From a virus: a stretch of DNA of 21,851 nucleotides. Below are positions 1 through 18,963 of this stretch, one piece after another. A model generated the notes under the pieces. It worked only from the letters and a program-made list of their open reading frames with translations. It did no database searches and was not told the origin of the DNA. Positions within the stretch are counted from its first letter, which is position 1. Each line of letters opens with the position of its first letter. The DNA is taken from IMG/VR virus record IMGVR_UViG_3300007765_000056, positions 1-21,851 of that record; one strand, 5' to 3'. The translations under genes and the position numbers were made by a program.

Positions 1-609
1 GCCAATATTGCCATGCGGAAAATGATTATCATGCTCAAAGAGATCAAGCAGGTAGCCAGAGATATGTTGGCATGGATATTTGACGATTGGAAAGAGATAA
101 CCGGAGTAGAAGAGAGTGTTCAGTATTTCTTTTCGGATATGGATCTGTCGGATGAAAAGGAAGTTCGCAAAATGCTCATTGAACTCTATGACAGGAATCT
201 TATTTCTAAAAACACCTTGCAGACCAAAATGGACTTGAATCCCCAGATAGAAAAGACCAACCGCCAGCAGGAAAAAAGTATTGTGGATATGACCTGGGAT
301 GTAAAAGATATCGTTTCCATGGTGCAGCTTGGGATTATGTCGGTGGAGACATCACAGGAGATTTTAGGTTTAGATCCGAAGCAAGAAGGTGAGAGAGCTA
401 AGCGAACAGAAGCCAGTGACATAACGGAAATGTTTGCTTCAGGGAATGTGTTTAATTCAGAACATACATGCGGAGACTGTGTTTATTGGGACGGCAGCAG
501 CAATCATTGCTCTGTCCACCTAACAGAAAAAACGTTTGATGATCGTTTCTGCAGACAATTCTCAATTGGAGAGTTGGATGTCAGCCCAAGCACAGCAGAT
601 ACTATCTGA
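1..609 (+). CDS. phage portal protein, C-terminal part (5' end outside window)
   Basis: The reading frame is open from the first base (A-N-I-A before the first ATG at 13), so this is the 3' end of a longer gene. The portal forms the dodecameric ring at one capsid vertex through which DNA is packaged and ejected. The call rests on the helical, charged C-terminal style, with LYDRNLISKNTL followed by NRQQEKS and an EILGLDP motif, as in SPP1/Mu-type portals, and on the MuF-type gene directly downstream. Near the end there is a cysteine cluster (C-x2-C-x9-C-x13-C, Cys codons from about 469 to 552) with the look of a small zinc knuckle, which is not a core portal feature. The last 32 nt overlap the chosen start of the next gene. 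The portal assignment is fairly sure from context; no conserved portal core lies inside the window. Confidence 0.72.
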   Translation, partial: ANIAMRKMIIMLKEIKQVARDMLAWIFDDWKEITGVEESVQYFFSDMDLSDEKEVRKMLIELYDRNLISKNTLQTKMDLNPQIEKTNRQQEKSIVDMTWDVKDIVSMVQLGIMSVETSQEILGLDPKQEGERAKRTEASDITEMFASGNVFNSEHTCGDCVYWDGSSNHCSVHLTEKTFDDRFCRQFSIGELDVSPSTADTI

Positions 610-3600
610 AACCCTAAAATCATATCAGGCTCGCAATCTTTATACCGAGCAACAGGTGGCCGGTATGGTGGAACTTTTAAAAAAAGGGGAGCTTTCCATC
701 AAATCCCAACTGGTTAAATATTCAGAAATTTCAGATTTAACTCCGGGCCAGAAAGTATTTCAATCTCGGTTAAAAGGATTACAGAGTGATTTAACGAAGA
801 CCCTATCCCAAGTAAAAAAAGACCAGACTTTGCTTATAACCACCGCCACGAAATCAAGTTTCCAAAGCGGAGTCCAAAATGGAATCTCGGAACTCAAAAA
901 TGCAAAATTCCCACGATGGGATATTTTGAGTTCTACAGATGAACAATTATTAGCAAAACAAGTGATGAGCTTGATTGACAGAAACGCATTGGATTTTATG
1001 GTGCGTTTTAATGTTCAGCTGGTTGGCAATGTCCATAAAGAACTTCTAAATGGAATCAAGCAGGGAATTACACTTGGCATCATCAAAGGCGATTCTATTG
1101 CAACGATCTCCAAAGGCTTGGGAAGTATCATTACTGACCCTGCTTCATTTAGAAGAGCAGGCAAGACTGTATTTAAGACCGCACAGCAAAGGTTAGAACT
1201 CATTACCCGAACGGAAACCTTAAGAGCCCACAATCAGGGCAGACTCAAATTCTTCGATACCATAAACGTTCGGCGTGTTAAATGGATGGCGGTGGGAGAT
1301 GAAAGGATGTGTCCGGTCTGTGGTGGACTCGATGGGAAAGAATTTAATATAGACAACATGCCACCTATCCCTGCTCATCCGGCCTGTCGCTGTACCACAG
1401 TGGCAGCCAGAGCCAGAGTTTGTAAAGATACTCTAAAAGCTTACAGTGATTTAAAAATAGAAACGATTTTGACAATTCCACTAACTGCGGTAGCAGACAA
1501 GAATGTTGATTGCATTTTAGTCCCGGAGCAGATCGAAGAGCTTGCTAAACATGCCAAACAGGAAAAGTCTCACTTAAATAAAATCATTCAGGATGGTAAG
1601 TACAGTTTACTCAATGGCAAGACACTCCAAAAGCTTGCTCAACAACGTGGGATAGCCGTCACCAGAAGCAAATTGGATATGATCAAACTTTTAGATCCGT
1701 TAGAACCGGGTTGGGATCTTAATGCCATGAAAACCAAGTCATTGAAAGTGTTAATGAAAAAGCATCACATCTCTGTTTTGCGAAGTAAAGATGATCTAGT
1801 AAAACTTCTTAAAGAGTGGGACAAAATTCATCAGATACAGATACCGGATTATGGAAAATGGTCAATCTTAAAACTCCGTGATGAAGCAAAAGCAAACGGT
1901 ATCTCGGTTATGCGCACCAAGGATGACTTAATTAAGATGCTGGATTCTATTGAGCCGGGTGTTCCCCACTCTCATTTAAAAGGGAATGCATTACAATTAA
2001 AATTAAAAGAATACAATATCGGCAAGGTGAGAACCAAAGATGAGCTTATTGGACTGCTCACCGGCAAAGCAAAACAGGGACAGGCTATTTCTAAAGCGGA
2101 TGATCTAATCAAGAAGCAATTAGCTGACCAGATCAAAAAAGCCAAAAAAGAATTAGATGAAATTATAGATATTTTAAAGCCCCATGAGATTATCGCTAAC
2201 CCCACACAGCTGGATGACTTCATGAAATCCTATATCAAAGGCTATGAGATACTAGCCAAGAACAACAAAAATCTCCTGCCAGAAGATATGGGTGCTTACA
2301 TCGCCAAACTGGACTCTGCTTTTGACACTTGGGATAATTACATCCAATCTTTGAAATCCGTCCAGCTTAAAAAAATCGTCAAACAGGCGGGCTTGGAAAA
2401 ATGGCAATGGATGAACAAAGACGAGATGATCATCATGCTTACTGCCAAGGATACAGCCAGCAAAGAAGCAGCCATGGAATCGGTTCTCATCAAATGGGAG
2501 AAATGGAGTCTTAAGCATGGTGGTAAGGGGATTAAATCAAAACCCAAAATCACAAAAGTTGATATCCCTAAAGTTGAAGTTCCCAAAGTTGATGTCGGAA
2601 AACCCATTGGCTGGAATAAAGTGGACAGCGATTGGGTGGCTTACGAGAAAACAGATCCGTTTAAGTTTCAAGGCAGGGCTGATATTGACGGAGCTCATAC
2701 CAAGTATTTCTTTACTGATAAGCAAGGTGACAAGTGGCTGTTTAAACCGGTGAGCGAAACATTCCGGGCACATGGGGATGAGGTGGCTTACCGCATTGGA
2801 AGGCTCATTGATGATCAAGCGGTGGATGTGAGATTTGTTCAGTTAAATGTTCCAGGCAGAGGGAATATGAAAGGCTCTATCCAGAAATGGAAGACCGGGT
2901 TAAAAGATGAATTTGATTTTAGAAATACCAATGTAAGCAAACTCACAAAAGATGAATTAGAACAACTCCAAAGAGAACACGTGATTGACTGGCTTATTGG
3001 GAACCACGATTCTCATGGGAAGCAGTTTATTAGGCATAGCGACGGTCAGGTCTATGGGATAGACAAGGGACAGCTATACAAATTCATGGGCAAGGATAAA
3101 CTGGATATTGACTACTGGCCGAATGAACGTTGGGGTGAAAAAGAACCGATTTACAATACCATCTTTCGCAGCTTTCAAAACAAAGAACTCAATGTGGATT
3201 TGAATGCATCACTTCACTATATCAAACAGGTTGAGCAGATTACAGATGATGCATTTTTAGACATTTTAAAACCCTATGCTGAAGGACGATTCGGGAAAAA
3301 TAGTGCAAATTTAAAAGCATTCTACCAGCAGGCTCTTCATCGTAAAAATCACATTAGAGAAGATTTTGAAGAATTCTATTCCAGAGTCTTATCCAAAAGA
3401 AACGGCAAGAAAACCAAATTCAAATTTGAAGAAGTAAAAACAGGGAAAGTAAAACTTACCAAGGAAGCGGAAGAGATTGTGGATGATGCAGTTGAAGCGG
3501 GATGGCAAGGAAAAGCGTTACCTCTGGATGGGGATGACATAGAAGATTTAAATGGTCTGGTCTATGTAGAGAAAATCAAAGGAACAAACAAGACTCAGGT

Positions 3601-5167
3601 AAACCTAAGAATGAAAGTCAGACCTGAGTCTGAAAAGAAATTGCTGTCACTTTTGGATGATTCTTTAGATACCATAACAGATATAAAAGGACAGCCATTG
3701 AAGGAGGATTCATTTTACAATGATATTCTTGCCGGGGTTAAAACCTTGAACCATCATATTAAAGATGGTGACTTTGCTTATAACGATAAAACGTTAAAAA
3801 TCATCCGCCGCTATCAACGGGAACTTCGAACATTAAAGAAATCATCCGACCCGGAAATATCCCAGATGGCACAGCATTACTTAAAAGCAGTGAATAAAGT
3901 TTTAAAAGGGGTCAAGGAGAATAAGAAATACACTGGAAGATTTACACAGTATCTCCGCAAGACTGATGTACCGAAACCCAAAAAGAAACAGACACTTCCC
4001 TTTAGAAAACAGAAAGTCTTATATGAACACAAGCAAAACAAAAAAGGTGACATCATCATTGAAAAAACCAAGGATGATGATTTAAGAAAGGTTATGAGAA
4101 GAGATACTGCAAAAGATGGATTGGAATATCGGATTGATCTGGGGGATGGTGTAGAAGCAGTTTATAAGCCGTGGCATGACAGAAACTATTATGCTCACCA
4201 AGGAGAGCTGGAACTGAAAATTACCGGAAGCCCGAATAGTAAAACCATTGAGTCTCTCATTGACAAATTAAATAAATTGGGATTAGATGGACGCTTGGCC
4301 TCAAAGACAGATCAGGAACTCATGTATTTACACAAACAGGCCTATCTGATTAAGGAAGATATGGAGCCCGGGTATAAACATCTGATGAATAAACTCAATA
4401 ACTCAAGTGCCACAAAAGAAGAGCGTATAAAAGCTATGAAAACATATTGGGCAAGTAAATTAGGCGTGAATGATATCTCAAAGCTTCCCGACTATAATCC
4501 CTATGGTGAATATTCATTGAGTTCAAACCCTGCACGTAAAAAGGTGTTTAACAAAACAGCCGGTTATAAAAATACATTTAGGTTTGATGTAAGTGCAAAA
4601 GAATTAGATCAAGAATTGGATGGGTTGGGGTTATATCATAAGGTTACCAGAGGACGAGATATGAGCAATACCATTGATGCGGTTCTTGCAAATAACGGTG
4701 CATTTGTGTCCACAGTTGAAAAGATCAGGATGGGGGTTCCGGTTGGGGGAATGAGTCCATTAGATGATATGGGTAGTGGCGGAGCCTCTTACTTTTTTAC
4801 ACGGATCAGGCAGTTGCCAAGTACCCGGGAAGCGGGTGAAGTGGGAATTTATTTTAAGAAGAAAATGATTCGCAGATTAGATGCTATTACCTACGATGCG
4901 GATAAATATGGAAGGGTGACTGGGAGTTCCGTGAGAGATAACCGATATCATAATCTGAATATGTTTAAGACCATCGCCAGAAGCGGAAGATCAGATGAGA
5001 CGATTTTTAAAAACTCAGTTACATTACTGGATAATGTTGACTATATCAATGTCTATGGCAGAGACAATAAAAACAAACTCGTTGCAGTATTTAATAAACA
5101 CGGAATCAAAAAACTACCGGATGGTCGTCGAATAGAAGACGTAATTTTGGTTATGGGGAAAAGATAA
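578..5167 (+). CDS. giant MuF/SPP1-gp7-type head protein with SAP-like repeats, HipA-like kinase domain and ART-like C-terminus
   Basis: About 1529 residues, against roughly 300-500 for an ordinary MuF/gp7 minor head protein, which binds the portal inside the capsid. The start at 578 has GGAGAG just upstream; an in-frame ATG at 536 has no Shine-Dalgarno site. The N-terminal ~290 residues end in the family signature CPVCGGLDGKEF (C245, C248) and PAHPACRC (C270, C272). Five SAP/HeH-like helical repeats follow (about 342-376, 379-415, 425-461, 465-496, 592-625), each with a T/R-K/S-K-D-x-L/M-I-x-L-L core. Residues about 678-900 resemble HipA/PI-kinase-like proteins: FKP (K723), E735, the catalytic-loop motif LIGNHDSHGKQF (D811, H813) and a metal-binding-like IDKGQ (D829). 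The C-terminus (about 1340-1529) has YH (H1354), GGASYFFTR (Y1405) and DETIF (E1474), spaced like the H-Y-E triad of ADP-ribosyltransferases. The MuF call is firm, the kinase call likely, the ART call tentative. It resembles the MuF polymorphic toxins known from temperate phages. Confidence 0.85.
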   Translation: MSAQAQQILSETLKSYQARNLYTEQQVAGMVELLKKGELSIKSQLVKYSEISDLTPGQKVFQSRLKGLQSDLTKTLSQVKKDQTLLITTATKSSFQSGVQNGISELKNAKFPRWDILSSTDEQLLAKQVMSLIDRNALDFMVRFNVQLVGNVHKELLNGIKQGITLGIIKGDSIATISKGLGSIITDPASFRRAGKTVFKTAQQRLELITRTETLRAHNQGRLKFFDTINVRRVKWMAVGDERMCPVCGGLDGKEFNIDNMPPIPAHPACRCTTVAARARVCKDTLKAYSDLKIETILTIPLTAVADKNVDCILVPEQIEELAKHAKQEKSHLNKIIQDGKYSLLNGKTLQKLAQQRGIAVTRSKLDMIKLLDPLEPGWDLNAMKTKSLKVLMKKHHISVLRSKDDLVKLLKEWDKIHQIQIPDYGKWSILKLRDEAKANGISVMRTKDDLIKMLDSIEPGVPHSHLKGNALQLKLKEYNIGKVRTKDELIGLLTGKAKQGQAISKADDLIKKQLADQIKKAKKELDEIIDILKPHEIIANPTQLDDFMKSYIKGYEILAKNNKNLLPEDMGAYIAKLDSAFDTWDNYIQSLKSVQLKKIVKQAGLEKWQWMNKDEMIIMLTAKDTASKEAAMESVLIKWEKWSLKHGGKGIKSKPKITKVDIPKVEVPKVDVGKPIGWNKVDSDWVAYEKTDPFKFQGRADIDGAHTKYFFTDKQGDKWLFKPVSETFRAHGDEVAYRIGRLIDDQAVDVRFVQLNVPGRGNMKGSIQKWKTGLKDEFDFRNTNVSKLTKDELEQLQREHVIDWLIGNHDSHGKQFIRHSDGQVYGIDKGQLYKFMGKDKLDIDYWPNERWGEKEPIYNTIFRSFQNKELNVDLNASLHYIKQVEQITDDAFLDILKPYAEGRFGKNSANLKAFYQQALHRKNHIREDFEEFYSRVLSKRNGKKTKFKFEEVKTGKVKLTKEAEEIVDDAVEAGWQGKALPLDGDDIEDLNGLVYVEKIKGTNKTQVNLRMKVRPESEKKLLSLLDDSLDTITDIKGQPLKEDSFYNDILAGVKTLNHHIKDGDFAYNDKTLKIIRRYQRELRTLKKSSDPEISQMAQHYLKAVNKVLKGVKENKKYTGRFTQYLRKTDVPKPKKKQTLPFRKQKVLYEHKQNKKGDIIIEKTKDDDLRKVMRRDTAKDGLEYRIDLGDGVEAVYKPWHDRNYYAHQGELELKITGSPNSKTIESLIDKLNKLGLDGRLASKTDQELMYLHKQAYLIKEDMEPGYKHLMNKLNNSSATKEERIKAMKTYWASKLGVNDISKLPDYNPYGEYSLSSNPARKKVFNKTAGYKNTFRFDVSAKELDQELDGLGLYHKVTRGRDMSNTIDAVLANNGAFVSTVEKIRMGVPVGGMSPLDDMGSGGASYFFTRIRQLPSTREAGEVGIYFKKKMIRRLDAITYDADKYGRVTGSSVRDNRYHNLNMFKTIARSGRSDETIFKNSVTLLDNVDYINVYGRDNKNKLVAVFNKHGIKKLPDGRRIEDVILVMGKR

Positions 5168-5763
5168 TGGATTTAAAAATTCAAATCAAAAACGAAAAGA
5201 AAAGAGTCAATGAATTGATTCAAAAAATCATGGACTCCAGTCGTTTGGAAACCACCAAGGGTGACAGTGAATATTTAATTCGTGATTGGCAGGATTTTAA
5301 AGGAGAAGACATTGGCGGAAAGCTTGGTGTGTATGATTATGACACTCCCCATTTTAAAAGAAAGAATTATGTGCTAACGAGTGTATTAGACAGTTTTGAG
5401 ATTGTGGAAGTCATTCCTATCATGGATAATTCAGGCAATCTTAAATCTTACGAGTATTACGGCTACTGGTCACCATTTTGGTTTTTAGAAAGCGGGTGGC
5501 AGGTCAATCATGCATCGTGTTTTACAGAGATAAAACAAGTTCAGGGTGGAATCGAATTTATCGGCACTGGAGATTTTAAAGGTAATTATGATTTAATTCT
5601 CTCAACCATTGAAGTTGAAATCGATGAGCGTGATGCAGAGATGGTGAAAGAGTGGAATGCGTTTAAAAAAGAAAATCCCAAGAGATTAAAACTGGCACGC
5701 CAGCAAGTAAGAGAAGAATTTGTGGATTCTATTATTCGCAAAGGGTGGTTAAATGAAAATTAA
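5167..5763 (+). CDS. unrecognised 198-residue protein, candidate accessory or immunity partner of the MuF protein
   Basis: I do not recognise the family. The ATG overlaps the MuF stop codon by one base (TAATG), with GGGGA upstream, so it is translationally coupled to the giant head protein. The N-terminus is a charged helix (about 1-35). The centre (about 85-120) is strongly aromatic, with YEYYGYWSPFWF, and the rest looks like a mixed alpha/beta fold ending in a charged helix. There is no signal peptide or membrane segment. A small cytoplasmic protein directly behind a multidomain effector-like gene is where immunity proteins sit in polymorphic-toxin loci, and neither this gene nor the next is part of the usual portal-MuF-protease order. 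The immunity role is inference from position only; a chaperone or moron role is equally possible. Confidence 0.6.
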   Translation: MDLKIQIKNEKKRVNELIQKIMDSSRLETTKGDSEYLIRDWQDFKGEDIGGKLGVYDYDTPHFKRKNYVLTSVLDSFEIVEVIPIMDNSGNLKSYEYYGYWSPFWFLESGWQVNHASCFTEIKQVQGGIEFIGTGDFKGNYDLILSTIEVEIDERDAEMVKEWNAFKKENPKRLKLARQQVREEFVDSIIRKGWLNEN

Positions 5764-6268: not shown

Positions 6269-9200
6269 TTGCAAAATATTCCAGATATAGAAGTAGCAGA
6301 GTTTCTTGGCACGGACTTTCTGTCCTGTGAGATATTAGATGCTATTGCCCAAAAAGGGGATGACGTTGAAGAGTCTTCTGAACTACCGAAGTATATCACC
6401 AATTACATCGGCTCAAAGCAGAAGCTCATCGATTGGATCTGGCAGAATACGCCGGAAGACGTTAAGTCAGTCTTTGATGCATTTGGCGGGTCCAATGTTG
6501 TGGGATTCTTATATAAACGCAAAGGCCTTAAGGTCTTTACCAATGACCAATTAAAATATTCCTACCATATATCCAGAGCCATCATTGAGAACAATTCTGT
6601 TACGCTTTCTGATGATGAGATTGAAAACCTTGCTCAACCCAAATCCAATGCCGGCGATTTCATTCAACGCAATTTCAAGCACACCTTTTTTACACCTGAA
6701 GTTTTAAATATTTTAGATAGCCTGCGGGCAAACATCGACACCCTCAAAGGATACAAAAAAGACATCGCCCTTTTTGCATTGGGTAAAACCTGTATCTCCG
6801 GTAAGGGTGGTTTTGGACATTTCTCTTCTACCACCATGCATGGCAAACGCAGGTTTACCAAAAACCAGTTTATTGAACTCTATAAATCCAATTTAAAACG
6901 CATCAGCGACCTGGTCTTTGATAATGGACAGGAGAACAAAGCTTATAACGGTGAGATATTAGATATAGCCCCACAAGTAAAAGCAGACCTGGCTTATTTC
7001 GATCCTCCTTATGCCACCCATTTTTCCACCACCAATTATGAGACTGCCTACCATTTCGTGGAAGGTCTTATGACCATGTGGAAAGGCAAAGAGATTAAGG
7101 AAGATTCCAAAACAAAATCTTATCAAGTCTCATCCAAAACAGTAACTGAAAAAACAGCCAATGAGTTTTTTGAAAATTACTTAAACGCTTCCAAGCATAT
7201 CAAATACTGGATCATCTCATATCGAGATAATGCTTACCCGTCCGAGCGGAAGATAAAGACCATTATAGATGACTTGAATAAAGATTCACGGATGAAAAGT
7301 CGTGATCATCATTATTCTTTATCATCTGCACACGGAGAAAACAGCGATGCCAAGGAACATATCTTTATCTGCGGTCCAAGGGGGTTTTTGAATCAGGCTA
7401 AGGCGAACGCTGAAACGGAAGAAGAAATAATAGCCGCAAAAGGCACAAAAGACACAGAAACTGTAGAAGAAATACTAATTGAAGAAGATTTTCTTTTTGC
7501 GTTAGCAGCTCGTCGCAGTGGTTATGAGAATAAACATACGGAAGATAAAACAAGAGTCTCCGGATATATGGGCAGTAAATATTTTGTTTTGGATTGGATC
7601 TGGCGGGCTGTTCCAAAAGAGATAAGAAACAACCCAAATGGCAAGGTGTTCTTTGATGCATTCTGCGGTGGAGCCAATGTGGCTTATTTCTTCAAGCAGA
7701 AAGGATTCAAGGTAATAACCAATGATTCACTTGATTTTCCCACCCATATTGCAAAAGCCGTTATTGAAAATAGTTCCGTTACCCTGACGGATGAAGACAT
7801 AGAAATCCTGTTAAAAGAAAACAAATCAGCCGGGGATTTTGTGGTGAAAACATTCCACGGTTATTATTACACAAAACCCATATTAGAGTGGCTGGATAAC
7901 ATGTATGCCAATATCCAGAATCTAAAGGGATATAAAAAAGATTTGGCACTGTCTGCCATGGGTGCAACGGTTAAAGCCAAGGCACTTTTCGGAGAGTTTA
8001 AACGGAGTAAAAAAGGACTTAAAACATCTATTACAGAAAATAAGGCTAAAGACGATCGCTTTGGCAGATCTTCACTTGGAAACTTATCTGTCAAACAATT
8101 TGAACACACATTTAAATATTATGTAAAGAAATTCAATTCTCTGGTTTTTGATAACGGCCAGGAGAATAAAGTATACAAACAAGATACCTGGGATTTAATC
8201 CCGAAGGTAAAAGCCGACCTTGCTTATTTCGATCCGCCTTACGTAACAGAGTTTGAAGCCAACGATTATGAGAATGCCATGCATTTCGTGGAAGGCCTGA
8301 TGACTATGTGGAAGGGTAAAGAAATTCAGGATAATGTCTTCAGAAATTATAAATCAACAACGAAGTATTCCAAAAAAACATATCCAGATCAATTCAAAGA
8401 TTTAATCGGACTCTCACAAAAACAAAATAAACACCTCTTAATCTCATATCGTGACCACGCCTATCCCACCAAAAGTGAAATCAAATCATTCTTAAAAGAC
8501 AATTATCAAGAGTCGTCTGTCAAAGAGATTGAAGTAGAGTATCGCTTCGGGAAGAAAGATTCTAAAGCTGGTGGGAAGTATGCGAAGGAACTTCTATTCG
8601 TGGCATCTAAACCATTATCCAGTACCAGAAGTAACAGTCAGGAAGCGGAACGATTATGTCATACCACACTCACCTGTGATGCTCATCTAATTTCAAAAGC
8701 AAAAGAGGGTGACCCGCAGTTTACTTTTATATTGACTCATGCGGGCACCAATTCCAATGGCGATCATTTTCTTGCAAGTGAGCTCAAAACCAAGCATGAA
8801 ACCGTTGTTGAGAAGAAAATCGATTTAAAACATTCCCAGGATATTACAGACATTGTTGGTGGTGTCATCTCATCGGAATACAAGGAAGATAATAGCGGTG
8901 TAGTGGAATGTGTAGGCGAACTTTATGTACAGGATAATCCCCACGCCCAGCTTGCTTATAAACTCTTGAAAAAAGGGATTATAAAACAGGTGTCGATGGA
9001 ATGTGATTATGAGGAGGGTGAATGCTCTATTTGTAAAAAAAGGGTTAAAGCAAGATCAGATGATTGCATTCATTTAAAAAAGCATAAGGGAAGAGACTAT
9101 AAAGGCAAAAAAGTTTATGAGATTTTGCACAACATCACTTTTACCGGTCTTGGATTATTAGACAGAGCCGGTGCGGATGAACATGCAAAAATACTTGCAG

Positions 9201-9811
9201 TCGCTAACATAAATAAGGAGGACAGTCACATGTCAGAAAACAACAATCCCGATCAAAGCGGGAATAATAAGCAGACAGAAAAGGACACAGGATTGTCCGC
9301 ACTGGAAGCTAAATACAATGATCAGTCTGAAAAACTCAAAGGACTTCAAAAGGAAGCAGATCAAAAAGATGATCGCATTAAAGAGTTAGAGTCAGAACTG
9401 GAAAAAACAGCCAAGGATTTGGAAAAGGCACAGAAGCAAATCGAATCCATGGAAAAGGAAAAACAGGCAGCGAAACAAAAGGCTAAAGCTGAAAGCATCT
9501 TGAAAAAATGGGAGTCCATGGGTCGTTCATTTGAGACGGAAGAAGAAAAAGAAAAGGAATTAAAACGTCTTGCCGGTTTAAGTGAAGATGCGTTAGGTGC
9601 TATTGAAGAGACCATTGGTTCTTTTGATTCTTTAAAAAGCGAAAAAGCTGAAATAGAGAACAAGAAACAAGAAGAGAAAAAACAATCTCAAGCAAACATG
9701 CGGGCAAAAGCAAATGTAAAGCCGGAATCTGTGGATGACGTGGAAGTCACCTTAAAAGATGAATTGAAAAATGGTTTTGTAGCCGCATACAACTCAAGGA
9801 TAGGAGGATAA
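6269..9811 (+). CDS. fusion: two D12-class DNA adenine methyltransferase domains + prohead protease + scaffold
   Basis: 1180 codons in one open frame. The first methyltransferase has YIGSK (46-50), the SAM motif FDAFGG (69-74) and catalytic DPPY (245-248). The second, a diverged duplicate about 400 residues later, has YMGSK (433-437), FDAFCGG (462-468) and DPPY (655-658). Both share HFVEGLMTMWKGKEI after DPPY, so both should be able to make N6-methyladenine. Residues about 815-980 are a phage head maturation protease of the XkdF/assemblin-like fold, with LTHAG (822-826), candidate catalytic His855 (DLKHSQ) and Ser909 (QVSME), an inserted Cys/His knuckle (C919, C922, C933, H935) and the closing FTGLGLLDRAGADEHAKI. 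From Met988 the protein is a Glu/Lys-rich coiled coil typical of scaffolds. The gene lies exactly where protease and scaffold belong, before the capsid genes. The joint from methyltransferase to protease has no internal start codon that I can find. The fusion of methyltransferases to this module is unusual. Confidence 0.88.
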   Translation: MQNIPDIEVAEFLGTDFLSCEILDAIAQKGDDVEESSELPKYITNYIGSKQKLIDWIWQNTPEDVKSVFDAFGGSNVVGFLYKRKGLKVFTNDQLKYSYHISRAIIENNSVTLSDDEIENLAQPKSNAGDFIQRNFKHTFFTPEVLNILDSLRANIDTLKGYKKDIALFALGKTCISGKGGFGHFSSTTMHGKRRFTKNQFIELYKSNLKRISDLVFDNGQENKAYNGEILDIAPQVKADLAYFDPPYATHFSTTNYETAYHFVEGLMTMWKGKEIKEDSKTKSYQVSSKTVTEKTANEFFENYLNASKHIKYWIISYRDNAYPSERKIKTIIDDLNKDSRMKSRDHHYSLSSAHGENSDAKEHIFICGPRGFLNQAKANAETEEEIIAAKGTKDTETVEEILIEEDFLFALAARRSGYENKHTEDKTRVSGYMGSKYFVLDWIWRAVPKEIRNNPNGKVFFDAFCGGANVAYFFKQKGFKVITNDSLDFPTHIAKAVIENSSVTLTDEDIEILLKENKSAGDFVVKTFHGYYYTKPILEWLDNMYANIQNLKGYKKDLALSAMGATVKAKALFGEFKRSKKGLKTSITENKAKDDRFGRSSLGNLSVKQFEHTFKYYVKKFNSLVFDNGQENKVYKQDTWDLIPKVKADLAYFDPPYVTEFEANDYENAMHFVEGLMTMWKGKEIQDNVFRNYKSTTKYSKKTYPDQFKDLIGLSQKQNKHLLISYRDHAYPTKSEIKSFLKDNYQESSVKEIEVEYRFGKKDSKAGGKYAKELLFVASKPLSSTRSNSQEAERLCHTTLTCDAHLISKAKEGDPQFTFILTHAGTNSNGDHFLASELKTKHETVVEKKIDLKHSQDITDIVGGVISSEYKEDNSGVVECVGELYVQDNPHAQLAYKLLKKGIIKQVSMECDYEEGECSICKKRVKARSDDCIHLKKHKGRDYKGKKVYEILHNITFTGLGLLDRAGADEHAKILAVANINKEDSHMSENNNPDQSGNNKQTEKDTGLSALEAKYNDQSEKLKGLQKEADQKDDRIKELESELEKTAKDLEKAQKQIESMEKEKQAAKQKAKAESILKKWESMGRSFETEEEKEKELKRLAGLSEDALGAIEETIGSFDSLKSEKAEIENKKQEEKKQSQANMRAKANVKPESVDDVEVTLKDELKNGFVAAYNSRIGG
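9215..9221 (+). promoter_or_regulatory. internal Shine-Dalgarno site for the scaffold
   Basis: A perfect AAGGAGG, 8 nt before the in-frame ATG at 9230, inside the long methyltransferase-protease-scaffold gene. Its strength matches the sites before the decoration and capsid genes, which argues for independent initiation here. Confidence 0.8.
9230..9811 (+). CDS. capsid scaffolding protein from an internal in-frame start
   Basis: 193 residues, in frame with and nested in the 3' end of the long gene. The first ~25 residues are polar and disordered (rich in N, Q, S, D). A long charged coiled coil follows (about 30-95), then a helical region and a short basic stretch before the C-terminal segment ending NSRIGG. 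This is the usual build of a procapsid scaffold, whose C-terminus binds the coat protein. The arrangement copies lambda C/Nu3 and related phages, where a protease and its scaffold share a frame and the scaffold is made in excess from an internal start. The stop overlaps the Shine-Dalgarno region of the decoration gene. The coding sequence is certain; separate initiation is inferred from AAGGAGG and the known precedent. Confidence 0.75.
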   Translation: MSENNNPDQSGNNKQTEKDTGLSALEAKYNDQSEKLKGLQKEADQKDDRIKELESELEKTAKDLEKAQKQIESMEKEKQAAKQKAKAESILKKWESMGRSFETEEEKEKELKRLAGLSEDALGAIEETIGSFDSLKSEKAEIENKKQEEKKQSQANMRAKANVKPESVDDVEVTLKDELKNGFVAAYNSRIGG

Positions 9812-13254: not shown

Positions 13255-13449
13255 ATGGCAAAAAAGAAGACCAATACAAAAATGACCTTTCAGTTCTGGG
13301 TTGATCTTTATGAGATAAAACCCAATGTAGCTGAAGGTGTTAAAGAAGCTGTCAGTGTTACAAATACAACGCGTATGACAGAAAACGAATTTAAAAATGT
13401 CATAGACGGCTGGTTAGCTGCACCGGTAAAAGGAGAGAACAATGGTTAG
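13255..13449 (+). CDS. small conserved-position protein before the tail sheath
   Basis: 64 residues, AGAGGA upstream of the ATG. It starts with a basic MAKKKTNTK and then a soluble helical segment with two tryptophans (FWVDLYEIKP, VIDGWLAAP). Small genes of this size directly before the sheath gene occur in PBSX-like myoviruses, but their role is unknown to me. The stop overlaps the sheath start by 8 nt, so the two are translationally coupled. Confidence 0.6.
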   Translation: MAKKKTNTKMTFQFWVDLYEIKPNVAEGVKEAVSVTNTTRMTENEFKNVIDGWLAAPVKGENNG

Positions 13450-14833
13450 AATTATTCCAGACTCTTATACGGAGTATTTATCAGGAAAAGTGATTGTGCC
13501 GCCTACCTTGCCAAATATTGAAGGCAAGATGGGATCTGCTGGCGGTGGTGAGATTAATAAGGTATATGTGGTTGGTGATAAACAGACAGCCAAAACCATC
13601 TTTAAATCAGGTGAATTATTGAAGGCATTGGAAGAATCCTTTAATGCAGGAGCTTCCTTGATCTATGCACAGCGGATCGGACCCGCAACCCATTCAGAAA
13701 TTTCGCTGAATGATTCCAGCGGAACTCCCACGATTAAACTCTCATCAATCGAACCCGGGATTTATTTCAATGGGGTTGAAGTGGATGTAATAGATGACGG
13801 CACATCCATTACGCTGACCATCTTAAACAACCATACAGATGAAGAGATTAATTTCATTGGCGATAATGTGATTGATTTAGCAGATGGCATAAATGCCAAT
13901 CAAACTTTGGTTTTAGCTCAAGCGATTGGTTCAGCATTGCCTGCTGCCGTGTCGCCTACTTTTATGACAGGCGGAACAGATGGCGTTGATTTAACGAACG
14001 GTGATTACATAGATGGATTAACTGTTTTTGAAAATCATCCTGAGATTAACTGGCTGCACTGCGTTGGAGCAGACTCGCTTCCTCTTTGGACTGCCATTAC
14101 AACCCATTGTGATTATATGGTGCGGGAGAACTTATCAGAACGTTTTGCATTACTTGATCCACCAAGGTTTGATCCTTTAAATCCAAACAAACCAACTTTC
14201 ACCGAAATCCAATCTTATGTGGATACGGTTACTGCCATGACCGACACATTTTCCAATCGCAATGCAGTCGTCATTGCAGGTGAAGGGAAATTCGTCGACA
14301 GTGACGGCAATGAATATGTAAACAGATTAACGGCTACACTATCCGGAATCATGGCTTCGATACCCTTACAGAAATCACTTATTGGTGAAGATATTTCTAC
14401 AGTTATTGGACTATATCCGGAGTTCAACCCTGCCCAATTCACACAGTTTATCCAGAGTAAAATCAACTTTGGACGGTTAGAACCGGGAGTGGGCTTGATT
14501 GTGGGACATTCGTTGACATTAACACCCCTTGGAGATACCTATAACCGCATTGAAAAGCTTCGAGCTATCTACTATGCAGGGAAGCAGACCAGGCTTGCTG
14601 CATTTCCCCATGTAGGGAAACCCAATGATTCGGCAGGGGAGGGATTGGCACTTTTGGAAGCGGATTTACGCACGCCATTAGATCTTATGGTAAACCATGG
14701 GCAGATTGATACTTATGAGATTGAAGTTGAATCGGATGATACCATGAGAGCCTTGGGAGAAGTGGTGGTTCGTCTGGCTGTTAACTCCATGAAGGCCATG
14801 GAGATTATTTTATCAAAAGTAACTTTGGATTAG
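13442..14833 (+). CDS. contractile tail sheath protein
   Basis: 463 residues, AGGAG upstream. The sheath subunit polymerises around the tail tube and contracts on infection. The N-terminus VPPTLPNIEGKMGS and the following VYVVGDKQTAKTIF, LLKALEESFNAGASLIYAQRIG match XkdK-like sheaths. The conserved C-terminal region includes RIEKLRAIYYAGKQTR, ADLRTPLDLMVNHGQI and the final VVVRLAVNSMKAMEII. The length is typical of the smaller Gram-positive-type sheaths. This gene identifies the phage as a myovirus and is followed 12 nt later by the tube gene. Confidence 0.88.
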   Translation: MVRIIPDSYTEYLSGKVIVPPTLPNIEGKMGSAGGGEINKVYVVGDKQTAKTIFKSGELLKALEESFNAGASLIYAQRIGPATHSEISLNDSSGTPTIKLSSIEPGIYFNGVEVDVIDDGTSITLTILNNHTDEEINFIGDNVIDLADGINANQTLVLAQAIGSALPAAVSPTFMTGGTDGVDLTNGDYIDGLTVFENHPEINWLHCVGADSLPLWTAITTHCDYMVRENLSERFALLDPPRFDPLNPNKPTFTEIQSYVDTVTAMTDTFSNRNAVVIAGEGKFVDSDGNEYVNRLTATLSGIMASIPLQKSLIGEDISTVIGLYPEFNPAQFTQFIQSKINFGRLEPGVGLIVGHSLTLTPLGDTYNRIEKLRAIYYAGKQTRLAAFPHVGKPNDSAGEGLALLEADLRTPLDLMVNHGQIDTYEIEVESDDTMRALGEVVVRLAVNSMKAMEIILSKVTLD

Positions 14834-14845
14834 GAGGAAAATTAA

Positions 14846-15331
14846 ATGGCAATTGAAGCATTAAGCGGACTGGTTGATGGTATAGCAGGTAATTCTGTCT
14901 CTCTTTTTGTTAATGGCATTAAGGTGATGGCATTAAAGAATTTTAACTGGAAAGTAAAACAAGATAAAACGGCTTTAACCGGAGCCGGGAACGCAAAGGC
15001 TCATGGCGTTACCAGATCATTTCATAAAGAATACGAGATTGATTTTGAAGTGAAAGAGATTGCATCGGGAGTGTTGGTCAATGCTCTGGAAACAGCAGCA
15101 AATATCTTAACAGGAACTAAGCAGTTTAAGATTGGAGATGTGATAGCCAATGATCTTTTGGATGTTCACAATGCCACTATTGTGGTGTTCTATCCGGGAG
15201 CAGTGGCTTGGAAGAGTAAGGTATTCACCGGCTGTGAGTTTACGGATCAAGAAGGTGGGATATCCGATGATGGGGAACCGATTGGGATGAAGGTATCCGG
15301 CTTTGCATTAGATGCGAAAGGATTGTTTTAA
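14846..15331 (+). CDS. tail tube protein
   Basis: 161 residues with TAGGAGG upstream. It forms the stacked hexameric rings of the inner tube. Strand-rich sequence with VSLFVNGIKVMALKNFNWKV at the start, TRSFHKEYEIDFEVKEI in the middle and a C-terminal GCEFTDQEGG loop matches XkdM-like tube proteins. Immediately after the sheath is the expected position. The stop is followed 1 nt later by the next start. Confidence 0.85.
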   Translation: MAIEALSGLVDGIAGNSVSLFVNGIKVMALKNFNWKVKQDKTALTGAGNAKAHGVTRSFHKEYEIDFEVKEIASGVLVNALETAANILTGTKQFKIGDVIANDLLDVHNATIVVFYPGAVAWKSKVFTGCEFTDQEGGISDDGEPIGMKVSGFALDAKGLF

Positions 15332-15590: not shown

Positions 15591-15929
15591 ATGAGTAATG
15601 ACCAAAGCAAAATAATTAAAGAACTGAAAGAAAAGTATCCCCAGAACTTATTTCAGATTGAAATACCGGGGGATGATGGGCTCTATATCGCCAGAGAGTG
15701 CAGTTGGAGTGAGTTTGCACCCTTTGTTCAGACGGATAATCTTAATGCCGATATGCTTCCGAGTCTCGTGAAAGCCTTCCTGGTCTATCCAAAAATAGAA
15801 GATCAAGATTTTGAGTACAACACCACAGGCAAGTGGGCACCGGGCAAGATCATTACATTGGCACAGAAGATTCAAGAAGCATTGGGATACAGTGAAACTG
15901 CTACGGTAAAAAGCCTGGGAAACTCGTAA
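15591..15929 (+). CDS. tail assembly chaperone, short (gpG-like) product
   Basis: 112 residues with AGGAG upstream. It occupies the slot between tail tube and tape measure where every long-tailed phage encodes the chaperone that coats the tape measure during assembly. It is soluble and helical, with SWSEFAPFVQTDNLNADMLPSLVKAF in the middle. Its last codons contain the slippery sequence GGGAAAC, so a fraction of ribosomes should shift into the -1 frame and continue to 16114. Most ribosomes stop at TAA 15927-15929. Confidence 0.8.
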   Translation: MSNDQSKIIKELKEKYPQNLFQIEIPGDDGLYIARECSWSEFAPFVQTDNLNADMLPSLVKAFLVYPKIEDQDFEYNTTGKWAPGKIITLAQKIQEALGYSETATVKSLGNS

Positions 15930-16114
15930 AGGAAGTTGACAAAACTTCCTATCTGCAAATGAGAGCGGTGATCTGTATGAAATTTCCAGCTTATACTTTT
16001 GAAACAGTGGATAGTCTACCCTTATCTCGCGTGATGGAAATCTATGCCTCCTGCCAGTGGTTAAGTGATCAGGAAAAGAAAGCAATTGATGAAGCAAAAA
16101 GGAAAATGAGATAA
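15591..16114 (+). CDS. tail assembly chaperone, long (gpGT-like) -1 frameshift product
   Basis: Reading in frame to GGA (15918-15920) and AAC (15921-15923), then slipping back one base, the ribosome continues with CTC GTA AAG and reads 63 codons to TAA 16112-16114, for about 174 residues. The -1 extension contains KFPAYTFETVD and a helix VMEIYASCQWLSDQEKKAI, like the T domains of other gpGT proteins. The extension has no good start of its own: the ATG at 15977 lacks a Shine-Dalgarno site. The extension's stop overlaps the tape-measure ATG by one base. Joined coordinates are 15591-15923 and 15923-16114. Confidence 0.8.
15917..15950 (+). promoter_or_regulatory. programmed -1 ribosomal frameshift signal
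   Basis: The slippery heptamer G GGA AAC is at 15917-15923 in the correct phase. After a 6-nt spacer comes a perfect 8-bp hairpin, AGGAAGTT (15930-15937) with AACTTCCT (15943-15950) and a 5-nt loop. The zero-frame stop TAA lies in the spacer. Heptamer, spacing and stem are the textbook arrangement, and GGGAAAN is the type used by lambda G/GT. Confidence 0.88.
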
Positions 16115-18963
16115 TGGCTTTCGGAAGCGGATTTACACAAGCGATCAATATTAAACTCATTGGTTCTTCTAATCTGAAGAACTCCATGGGCGGGGCAGCG
16201 AAAGATGTTCAAAAGTTAAAATCTGCTCTTACGGATCTTCGATCAGCAGGCTTAAAACTCATGGGTGTGGGTGTTGGGATTTCAACTGCATTTATCGGTC
16301 CCATTGTGCAAGCTTCCAAGTTTAACACGCAATTGGTACGAACCGGAAAACTGGCAGGTGTGGGTGCAGATGAGATGAAAATCTTGGGTGATGTGGCCAT
16401 GGAACTCGGTGCCAAGACATTATTTACAGCTCAACAGATTGCCATGGGACAGGAAGAATTAGTTCGCTTGGGATTTGGTATGGAAGTGGTAGGAAACAAA
16501 GCTGGAGCATTCGGTGAAGTATTGAATTACGCTTCAGCCCACCAGATTGAGATGAATGATTCTGCTCAAATGCTTATCGGAACACTCCGTTCATTTAATC
16601 AGCCATTGACAGATGCACAAAAAGTGTCCGATATGTTTTCAACAGTGCTTTCCAAGACCGGATTTTCCATGGATGGGTTGACTGAAGCGTTAAAAATGGC
16701 AAATACATCCATTCCAGCCTTTAATCAATCTATCGAGACACAGCTTACGCTCCTTGGAATACTCGCCAACAGGCAGCAGGGATCCAGTATTGGAGCTCGC
16801 AGACTTTCCACAGCAATGACCATGATTTATACCCAGCAGGATAAGATTAATAAACTCTTCGGAACAGATACATTCAAGGTTTATGACGAAGCCACAGGCA
16901 AACAGAAAAACTTTATTGATGTGATTTTTGACATGAAAAAAGCGATGAAAAGTTTTTCAGATGAACAGCAGGCGGTAATGTTAAAAGATTTAGTGGGAAC
17001 GATTGGACTTAAAGGATTAGTCCCTTTACTCAAAGCCCCGGTAGAAGAATTTAAAAGATTAGGGATTGCGATAAATGAGGGTGCGATTTCTACATCAGGT
17101 TTTGCTGATGCGGTGCGGAAAACTCCCAAGGGGATGTGGCTCTTAATGAAATCCGCCATCTCCGGTGTGACCATGGAGATTGGTCAGCATTTAATGCCAA
17201 TCGCAACAGCCACCATGAAAATTATTACCATGCTCTCTGACAAGTTTTTAGGATTTATGAAAGCACATCCGATTTTAGCCAAAGTCGTTCTAATCTCAAC
17301 TGCTTTACTTGGTGTTTTGGCACTTTTAAGTGGTGGATTATTTCTTGCTACTTCCATGTTGGGTTTAATGATGACATCCACATCCGGTCTTACCACATCC
17401 CTTATTTCAATGGCAGCCACCATGACAGGAACAAGCGTTAGCAGTATGACCTTATCCACAGCATTAGGGGTTCTCTCTGGCGTATTGTGGTCAATATTGT
17501 GGCCGATCGGAGCAATTGTTCTGGGTGCAATTGCACTCTACAAAGCGTGGCAGCATAATTTTTTAGGACTCAAAGATGTGGTGGATGCAGCATGGACCGC
17601 CATTAAGCCTTTCTTTATTTGGATAAAAAGTACATTTACAATGATTTCGACTTGGGTGAAAGCAGGGATTGGTTCCATGATTAAATCCATCCGTGATTGG
17701 TATCAAAGTTGGAATTCATCCTTCACCGGCATGAAATCTCCCCTCATGGCTTTTGCCGGTCTGGTGGCATACGTGGTGGGATTTATTGTCGGGATATTTA
17801 AAAGAGTTTTTTCTGCTGTAAAACCATACATCATGCCTTTGTTTAAGTTTCTTAAAACAGGATTTAAAGGAGCATTTCAGATTGTAACGGGAATCTTGAA
17901 AACGTTTTTCAGCTTCTTTTCAGGCATTTTCAAAATTATAGGCAGCATCTTAAAAGGGGATTTTTCAGGAGCCTTGGATGCTGCCAAAGATATGGTTAAG
18001 GGGATGGTGGCTGGAATAAAGACCGCTTTTACAGGTCTTTGGAATCTGATTAAAGGGGTACTGGGATCTATTTACAATATCTTCAAAATTACTTTTGTCG
18101 GTGCCTGGAATTTAATTAAAGCTGCCGTATCAGGGGTGTGGAAGGTGATAAAGAATGTCTTCTCTTTTATCTGGGATGGAATCAAATGGGTGGTGTCAGG
18201 AATAAAGGATGCAGGTGAGAAGATTTTATCAGCACTGGCCACACCGTTTCAGGCAGGCTGGGAGTTGATAAAGTCGGTTTTTAATGGGGTTAAAAGTTTC
18301 TTTTTATCCATCTTTTCTCCTGTGTTTGAATGGCTCTCTTCCACTTGGCAATCCATCGGCAACACCATATCAGGAGTCTGGAACAGTGTTACAACTGGTT
18401 TTAATAGTTTCAAGGAAAGTATAACCATCGGTGTTTCCTTTATTGCAGACTTTTTTGTCTCTGCATTTACCTCCATTAAAAGCACCGTATTAACCATCTT
18501 TAACGGAATATCGGATGCAATCTCCGGTGTGTGGAATGGGATTAAATCCATGTTCACAAATTCCATTAACTGGGTGATTGATAAGGCAAATTCTTTAATT
18601 GGTGGTGTAAACAGTGTAACCGGGAAGGTTGGGATTCCGGCTATACCAGAGATTCCGAAACTGGCGGTTGGTATAATGGAAGTACCGCAGGATATGCTGG
18701 CTGTCATCCACAAAGGTGAGGCGGTGATTCCTGCAGATCAGAATCCATTTAAGACCGGTTCAAATTTGACTCAATCTGTTATCAATAACACCGCTTACAA
18801 CCAGCAGCAGACAAAGTCTGTTTATATTGATCGTTCTGTAAAGGAAAACACCATTTACGTTTCAGCAGACGGAGGAAACCCGGAAGATTTTAAATCTAAA
18901 CTGATGGATGTGTTTGAAGATTTAGCTGGTAAGTCAGACAAATTGGAAATCGCTATACCATGA
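16114..18963 (+). CDS. tail tape measure protein
   Basis: 949 residues. It sets tail length and is ejected into the host envelope. The N-terminal PhageMin_Tail-type domain (about 1-260) has VGVGISTAFIGPIVQASKF and helical repeats. Hydrophobic membrane-type segments lie at about 389-415, 452-478 and 544-566. A long amphipathic region with Trp/Phe/Gly at about 11-residue spacing follows (FTGLWNLIKGVLGSIYNIFK, then GVWKVIKNVFSFIW). The typical closing motif HKGEAVIPA is at 866-874. At the known lambda ratio of about 0.15 nm per residue the tail would be near 140 nm (rough inference). The ATG overlaps the chaperone extension stop, and its stop overlaps the next start (ATGA). Confidence 0.9.
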   Translation: MAFGSGFTQAINIKLIGSSNLKNSMGGAAKDVQKLKSALTDLRSAGLKLMGVGVGISTAFIGPIVQASKFNTQLVRTGKLAGVGADEMKILGDVAMELGAKTLFTAQQIAMGQEELVRLGFGMEVVGNKAGAFGEVLNYASAHQIEMNDSAQMLIGTLRSFNQPLTDAQKVSDMFSTVLSKTGFSMDGLTEALKMANTSIPAFNQSIETQLTLLGILANRQQGSSIGARRLSTAMTMIYTQQDKINKLFGTDTFKVYDEATGKQKNFIDVIFDMKKAMKSFSDEQQAVMLKDLVGTIGLKGLVPLLKAPVEEFKRLGIAINEGAISTSGFADAVRKTPKGMWLLMKSAISGVTMEIGQHLMPIATATMKIITMLSDKFLGFMKAHPILAKVVLISTALLGVLALLSGGLFLATSMLGLMMTSTSGLTTSLISMAATMTGTSVSSMTLSTALGVLSGVLWSILWPIGAIVLGAIALYKAWQHNFLGLKDVVDAAWTAIKPFFIWIKSTFTMISTWVKAGIGSMIKSIRDWYQSWNSSFTGMKSPLMAFAGLVAYVVGFIVGIFKRVFSAVKPYIMPLFKFLKTGFKGAFQIVTGILKTFFSFFSGIFKIIGSILKGDFSGALDAAKDMVKGMVAGIKTAFTGLWNLIKGVLGSIYNIFKITFVGAWNLIKAAVSGVWKVIKNVFSFIWDGIKWVVSGIKDAGEKILSALATPFQAGWELIKSVFNGVKSFFLSIFSPVFEWLSSTWQSIGNTISGVWNSVTTGFNSFKESITIGVSFIADFFVSAFTSIKSTVLTIFNGISDAISGVWNGIKSMFTNSINWVIDKANSLIGGVNSVTGKVGIPAIPEIPKLAVGIMEVPQDMLAVIHKGEAVIPADQNPFKTGSNLTQSVINNTAYNQQQTKSVYIDRSVKENTIYVSADGGNPEDFKSKLMDVFEDLAGKSDKLEIAIP

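Follow-up and report, generated by a model that had tools for sequence, protein, structure and literature searches.

One gene in the tail module of an uncultured contractile-tail phage very probably yields two tail assembly chaperones by a -1 ribosomal frameshift. The gene lies in a 21,851-bp IMG/VR virus record, the whole of which was analysed and is called the window here, and which also encodes a Mu-F-type head protein, a major head protein, sheath, presumed tube, tape measure and baseplate proteins. A -1 slip that yields two tail chaperones is known from many tailed phages, and the locus is very probably, as judged from its sequence, a G/GT-type tail-chaperone frameshift in a new protein family, an arrangement of a known kind and mechanistically ordinary. 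The chaperone gene sits between the tube and tape measure genes, which is a defining feature of the G/GT type, and the order sheath, tube, chaperone, extension, tape measure is kept in relatives wherever the locus reaches, with the presumed tube gene present in every relative whose locus extends that far. An earlier note on this DNA had proposed a tail chaperone frameshift here; conserved register, a conserved extension, selection in the -1 frame and gene order now support that proposal.

Table 1. Features of the chaperone locus and neighbouring tail genes, in window coordinates.
Feature	Coordinates	Strand	Basis
Tail sheath protein (contractile tail)	13442..14833	+	phrog_279 tail sheath, E 1.3e-23
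Presumed tail tube protein	14846..15331	+	after sheath; weak phrog_365 tail protein match, E 0.032
Tail assembly chaperone, short 0-frame product, 112 aa (gpG/gpE-like role)	15591..15929	+	between tube and tape measure; relatives 39-88% identical
A_AAA_AGC, possible decayed older site	15908..15914	+	where distant relatives carry A_AAA_AAG; inference from site comparison
Slippery heptamer G_GGA_AAC	15917..15923	+	in register; identical across three clades
-1 frame extension, 63 codons + stop (gpT/E'-like role)	15923..16114	+	purifying selection in -1 frame only; helical model
6-nt spacer TCGTAA, including 0-frame stop TAA	15924..15929	+	sequence
Presumed stimulatory hairpin, 8 bp, 5-nt loop	15930..15950	+	stem kept in relatives, one U-A to U-G change
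Tail tape measure protein	16114..18963	+	phrog_58, E 2e-50; TIGR01760, E 1.3e-26; PF10145, E 9.8e-19

The slip itself, its rate and its role in tail assembly we infer; the site, its register, the predicted structure, conservation, coding selection and gene order are what the sequences show. Most ribosomes would terminate at the TAA at 15927-15929 and release the short chaperone. A minority, stalled by the hairpin while on GGA AAC, would move back by one base to GGG AAA and continue in the -1 frame, adding 63 residues to give a predicted fused product of 174 aa with the junction ...SLGN/LVKEVDKTS.... The analogy with gpG/gpGT of lambda and gpE/E+E' of P2 suggests that the tape measure would be covered by the short form, and that the rare long form would use its extension to bring in tube subunits, allowing the tail to polymerise to its proper length.

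The earlier note placed GGGAAAC, a 6-nt spacer and a perfect 8-bp hairpin at the end of the chaperone frame, and register, spacer and predicted fold all bear this out. The chaperone frame reads ..CTG GGA AAC TCG TAA, leaving one sense codon between the heptamer and the stop. The hairpin arms, AGGAAGTT (15930-15937) and AACTTCCT (15943-15950), pair perfectly around the loop GACAA, and the 37-nt hairpin region has a minimum free energy of -11 kcal/mol (z -5.1), equalled by 0 of 200 shuffled sequences. Heptamer, spacer and hairpin stand where a stimulated -1 slip needs them. Across 21 genes of the window, in-register X_XXY_YYZ heptamers number 45. Only GGGAAAC at 15917-15923, at the end of its gene, is followed by a stem of at least 6 bp, and only there does the -1 frame run beyond 42 codons. 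In simulated gene ends, a heptamer in the last 10 codons, a stem of at least 8 bp and a -1 frame of at least 60 codons occurred together at about 2.5e-5 per gene end; the heptamer alone occurred at 0.069 per gene end.

The -1 frame encodes 63 aa (15923-16111), and its TAA at 16112-16114 shares one base with the tape measure ATG at 16114, which agrees with the earlier description of a frame open for 63 codons up to the tape measure start. Among the close clades, dN in this frame is 0.14-0.16 against a dS of 1.2-1.3, and dN exceeds dS when this stretch is read in either of the other two frames. In the more distant clade with the A6G heptamer, the -1 frame again has the lowest dN/dS and zero stops, against 3-6 stops in the other frames. 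Purifying selection acts on the -1 frame and not on the others. The extension is modelled as helical with a mean pLDDT of 80, and this model found no convincing fold match in the PDB or BFVD; the model of the chaperone (pLDDT 49) is too poor for a fold search.

The extension had also been described as start-less, which does not hold for the window: in-frame ATGs lie at 15959 and 15977, and a mechanical listing of open reading frames picks up a 51-aa ORF at 15959-16114. What does stand is that no start is conserved among the relatives. These ATGs, the second with an anti-Shine-Dalgarno energy of -5.3, which the spread among other genes in the window (-3.1 to -10.2) includes, raise the possibility that the -1 frame is translated as a small gene of its own (51 or 45 aa), maybe coupled to the chaperone stop, and that no frameshift takes place. 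However, the ATG at 15959 is TTA in L004 and L065, otherwise the same phage, and an alanine codon in L070 and L073, while the ATG at 15977 is replaced by Lys, His or Asn in distant relatives, so that no start codon position is common to all. The open frame and the selection on it, moreover, extend upstream of both ATGs to the heptamer, and an in-register heptamer is kept everywhere. We consider a separate gene very unlikely.

Frameshifting is further supported by close relatives, with the chaperone 85% identical in L005-L007 and 88% identical in L008 (L002-L004 are the same phage). As several of these contigs are identical over the site, they count as three clades, with 82-88% protein identity, rather than as seven witnesses. 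The close clades retain GGGAAAC, the 6-nt spacer, the 8-bp stem, the loop length and the -1 frame. The only pair variation in the stem is a change of its last pair from U-A to U-G in two divergent close clades, and because of this the hairpin is unproven by covariation. At codons for invariant residues, silent changes are found in 2 of 9 codons from heptamer to hairpin and in 23 of 36 beyond (one-sided Fisher p 0.03, a small test); scarcer silent change is as expected if the site also acts as RNA. A pattern scan for GGGAAAC followed by the GGAAGT hairpin returned the known relatives and six further matches, which we rejected as chance occurrences that carry neither extension nor chaperone.

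More distant relatives (L056-L059 and L070-L076, some of them the same contigs) were reached with an alignment of the extension and then a widened chaperone alignment. They are 39-45% identical to the window in the chaperone and about 48-66% in the extension. In nine distinguishable relatives, whose chaperones range down to about 40% identity, an in-register heptamer ends exactly 3 nt short of the chaperone stop, and a homologous -1 extension precedes the tape measure. The earlier note had named relatives lacking joint conservation of heptamer and -1 frame as the finding that would refute a frameshift, and every relative that covers the site keeps both. This joint conservation holds for the register, the 3-nt distance to the stop and the extension, but the exact letters of the heptamer are not kept beyond the closest relatives: GGGAAAC is confined to the window's clade, L072, L074, L075, L076, L070 and L073 carry AAAAAAG, and L071 carries AAAAAAC. 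The slippery site appears to have shifted about two codons downstream in the window's lineage, since the window reads GTA AAA AGC CTG where its relatives read GTA AAA AAG CTG; the fused protein would stay nearly the same length at the junction.

The short A runs at the A6G sites of these relatives could suggest that the frames are joined by slippage of RNA polymerase rather than of the ribosome. For transcriptional slippage to be efficient, however, 6 A in a row are few, the longest homopolymer in GGGAAAC is 3, and a hairpin 6 nt downstream suits ribosomal slippage; we regard transcriptional slippage as extremely improbable. Equally hard to credit is gene decay or a sequencing error, with an indel splitting what was once a single ORF: one continuous protein is indeed encoded by two adjacent frames, and the very distant L060 appears to have both parts as one ORF, but the identical arrangement, with low dN/dS, recurs in several diverged clades and several contigs.

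Under ribosomal frameshifting, the type of heptamer can be set beside the RNA structure that follows it. In the GGGAAAC clade a compact structure begins 4-6 nt past the heptamer (z -2.6 to -4.6, 28 nt), and L071, with AAAAAAC, also has one (z -2.4 over 28 nt, -5.7 over 60 nt); the AAAAAAG relatives have no compact structure downstream (z -0.8 to +2.0, 28 nt). Counting against the frameshift, the report of G_GGA_AAC as one of the shiftiest heptamers concerns mammalian ribosomes, and in E. coli A_AAA_AAC, which likewise ends in AAC, is far less effective than A_AAA_AAG (PMC5009743). A tree of sheath and tube separates the window's clade from the AAAAAAG lineages (100% support for the split), and because L071 groups with the latter (60% support for its placement), the combination of a weak heptamer with a hairpin seems to occur in two lineages. 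The natural reading of these few sites would be that heptamer and stimulator compensate each other. That the recoding signal turns over across this tail-module family while the recoding event stays is a proposition we hold to be evenly balanced. If true, it would demonstrate in nature that heptamer and stimulator strengths compensate, holding the ratio of short to long chaperone. The small natural series of GGGAAAC with hairpin, AAAAAAC with hairpin and AAAAAAG lacking a compact hairpin could reveal how phages maintain that ratio as the slippery sequence changes. In the high-GC relatives L070 (at 5289-5294) and L073, a Shine-Dalgarno-like AAGGAG precedes A_AAA_AAG by 8 nt, an arrangement also found in dnaX.

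The likeness to known systems is one of arrangement. In lambda G/GT, too, the gene lies between the major tail protein and the tape measure, a -1 shift occurs near the end of the chaperone frame, the extension is in the -1 frame and the tape measure follows with a short overlap; unlike the window's source, lambda is a siphophage, slips at GGGAAAG and has a longer T (144 codons). P2 E/E+E' shares the contractile tail, the order sheath, tube, E, -1 E' and tape measure, the short extension and its overlap with the tape measure, but P2 slips at TTTTTTG. The same G_GGA_AAC has been reported for the g-t chaperone frameshift of HCTV-1 (PMC5009743), which, unlike the phage studied here, is a haloarchaeal siphovirus. 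The A_AAA_AAG heptamer of most distant relatives is that of E. coli dnaX, an unrelated gene. Alignment of the extension with gpT-type proteins, proposed earlier as a check, gave no significant match to lambda gpT or P2 E', and neither the chaperone nor the extension showed significant similarity to lambda G/T or P2 E/E' (hhalign probabilities 0.1-0.3%). Because these alignments gave no significant match, the likeness to lambda and P2 is one of arrangement and mechanism, not of detectable homology.

The chaperone matched no Pfam or NCBIfam family, and neither it, the extension nor the chaperones of the distant relatives had a tblastn match in 50,697 phage records. Two phrogs of unknown function, phrog_10943 for the extension (E 0.0035) and phrog_5128 for one relative's chaperone (E 1.4e-4), add nothing to the naming. 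Annotation as tail assembly chaperone is reported in the PRFect study for 2,397 of 3,679 SEA-PHAGES genomes (PMC10885494); for the contractile-tail phage group described here, the phage collection searched contained no match to the chaperone. Our reading gives a function to a gene and a hidden extension that ordinary annotation would reduce to a hypothetical protein followed by either a gap or a 51-aa ORF, and what it adds is a functional name for an unannotated family together with the turnover of a recoding signal. As for the host, genome contigs scanned with the sheath alignment gave no match and those scanned with the M15 peptidase only distant ones; a search for the sheath in 147 and 296 genomes of two phyla gave no match.

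Several further observations concern this and neighbouring loci. A second inverted repeat lies about 30-60 nt past the heptamer in several relatives, at 15951-15978 in the window and at the same place in L066, L072 and L071 (CTTGCAGATGAGAGCGGTGATCTGCAAG in L072); because the best-conserved block of the protein (LQMRAVIC) is encoded in an overlapping stretch, coding may account for it. In L060 (2194-3279), a very distant possible relative with a 31% identical extension, the apparently continuous chaperone-extension ORF is 199 aa long and directly follows a 158-aa ORF weakly similar to its N-terminal half, perhaps as two tandem genes replacing one frameshifted gene.

In the head module, the Mu-F-type minor head protein (536-5167) is 1543 aa long, with the Mu-F domain at residues 173-288 and only weak HipA_C and SAP matches in Pfam outside it. 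Directly upstream of the cement and major head proteins, within the head-gene cluster, a 1180-aa ORF (6269-9811) has two D12 adenine-DNA methyltransferase domains followed by about 400 aa more, and phrog_27806 covers its residues 404-1179 nearly end to end (E 5e-292). Judged by position, its C-terminal part may be a capsid protease or scaffold fused to the methyltransferases.
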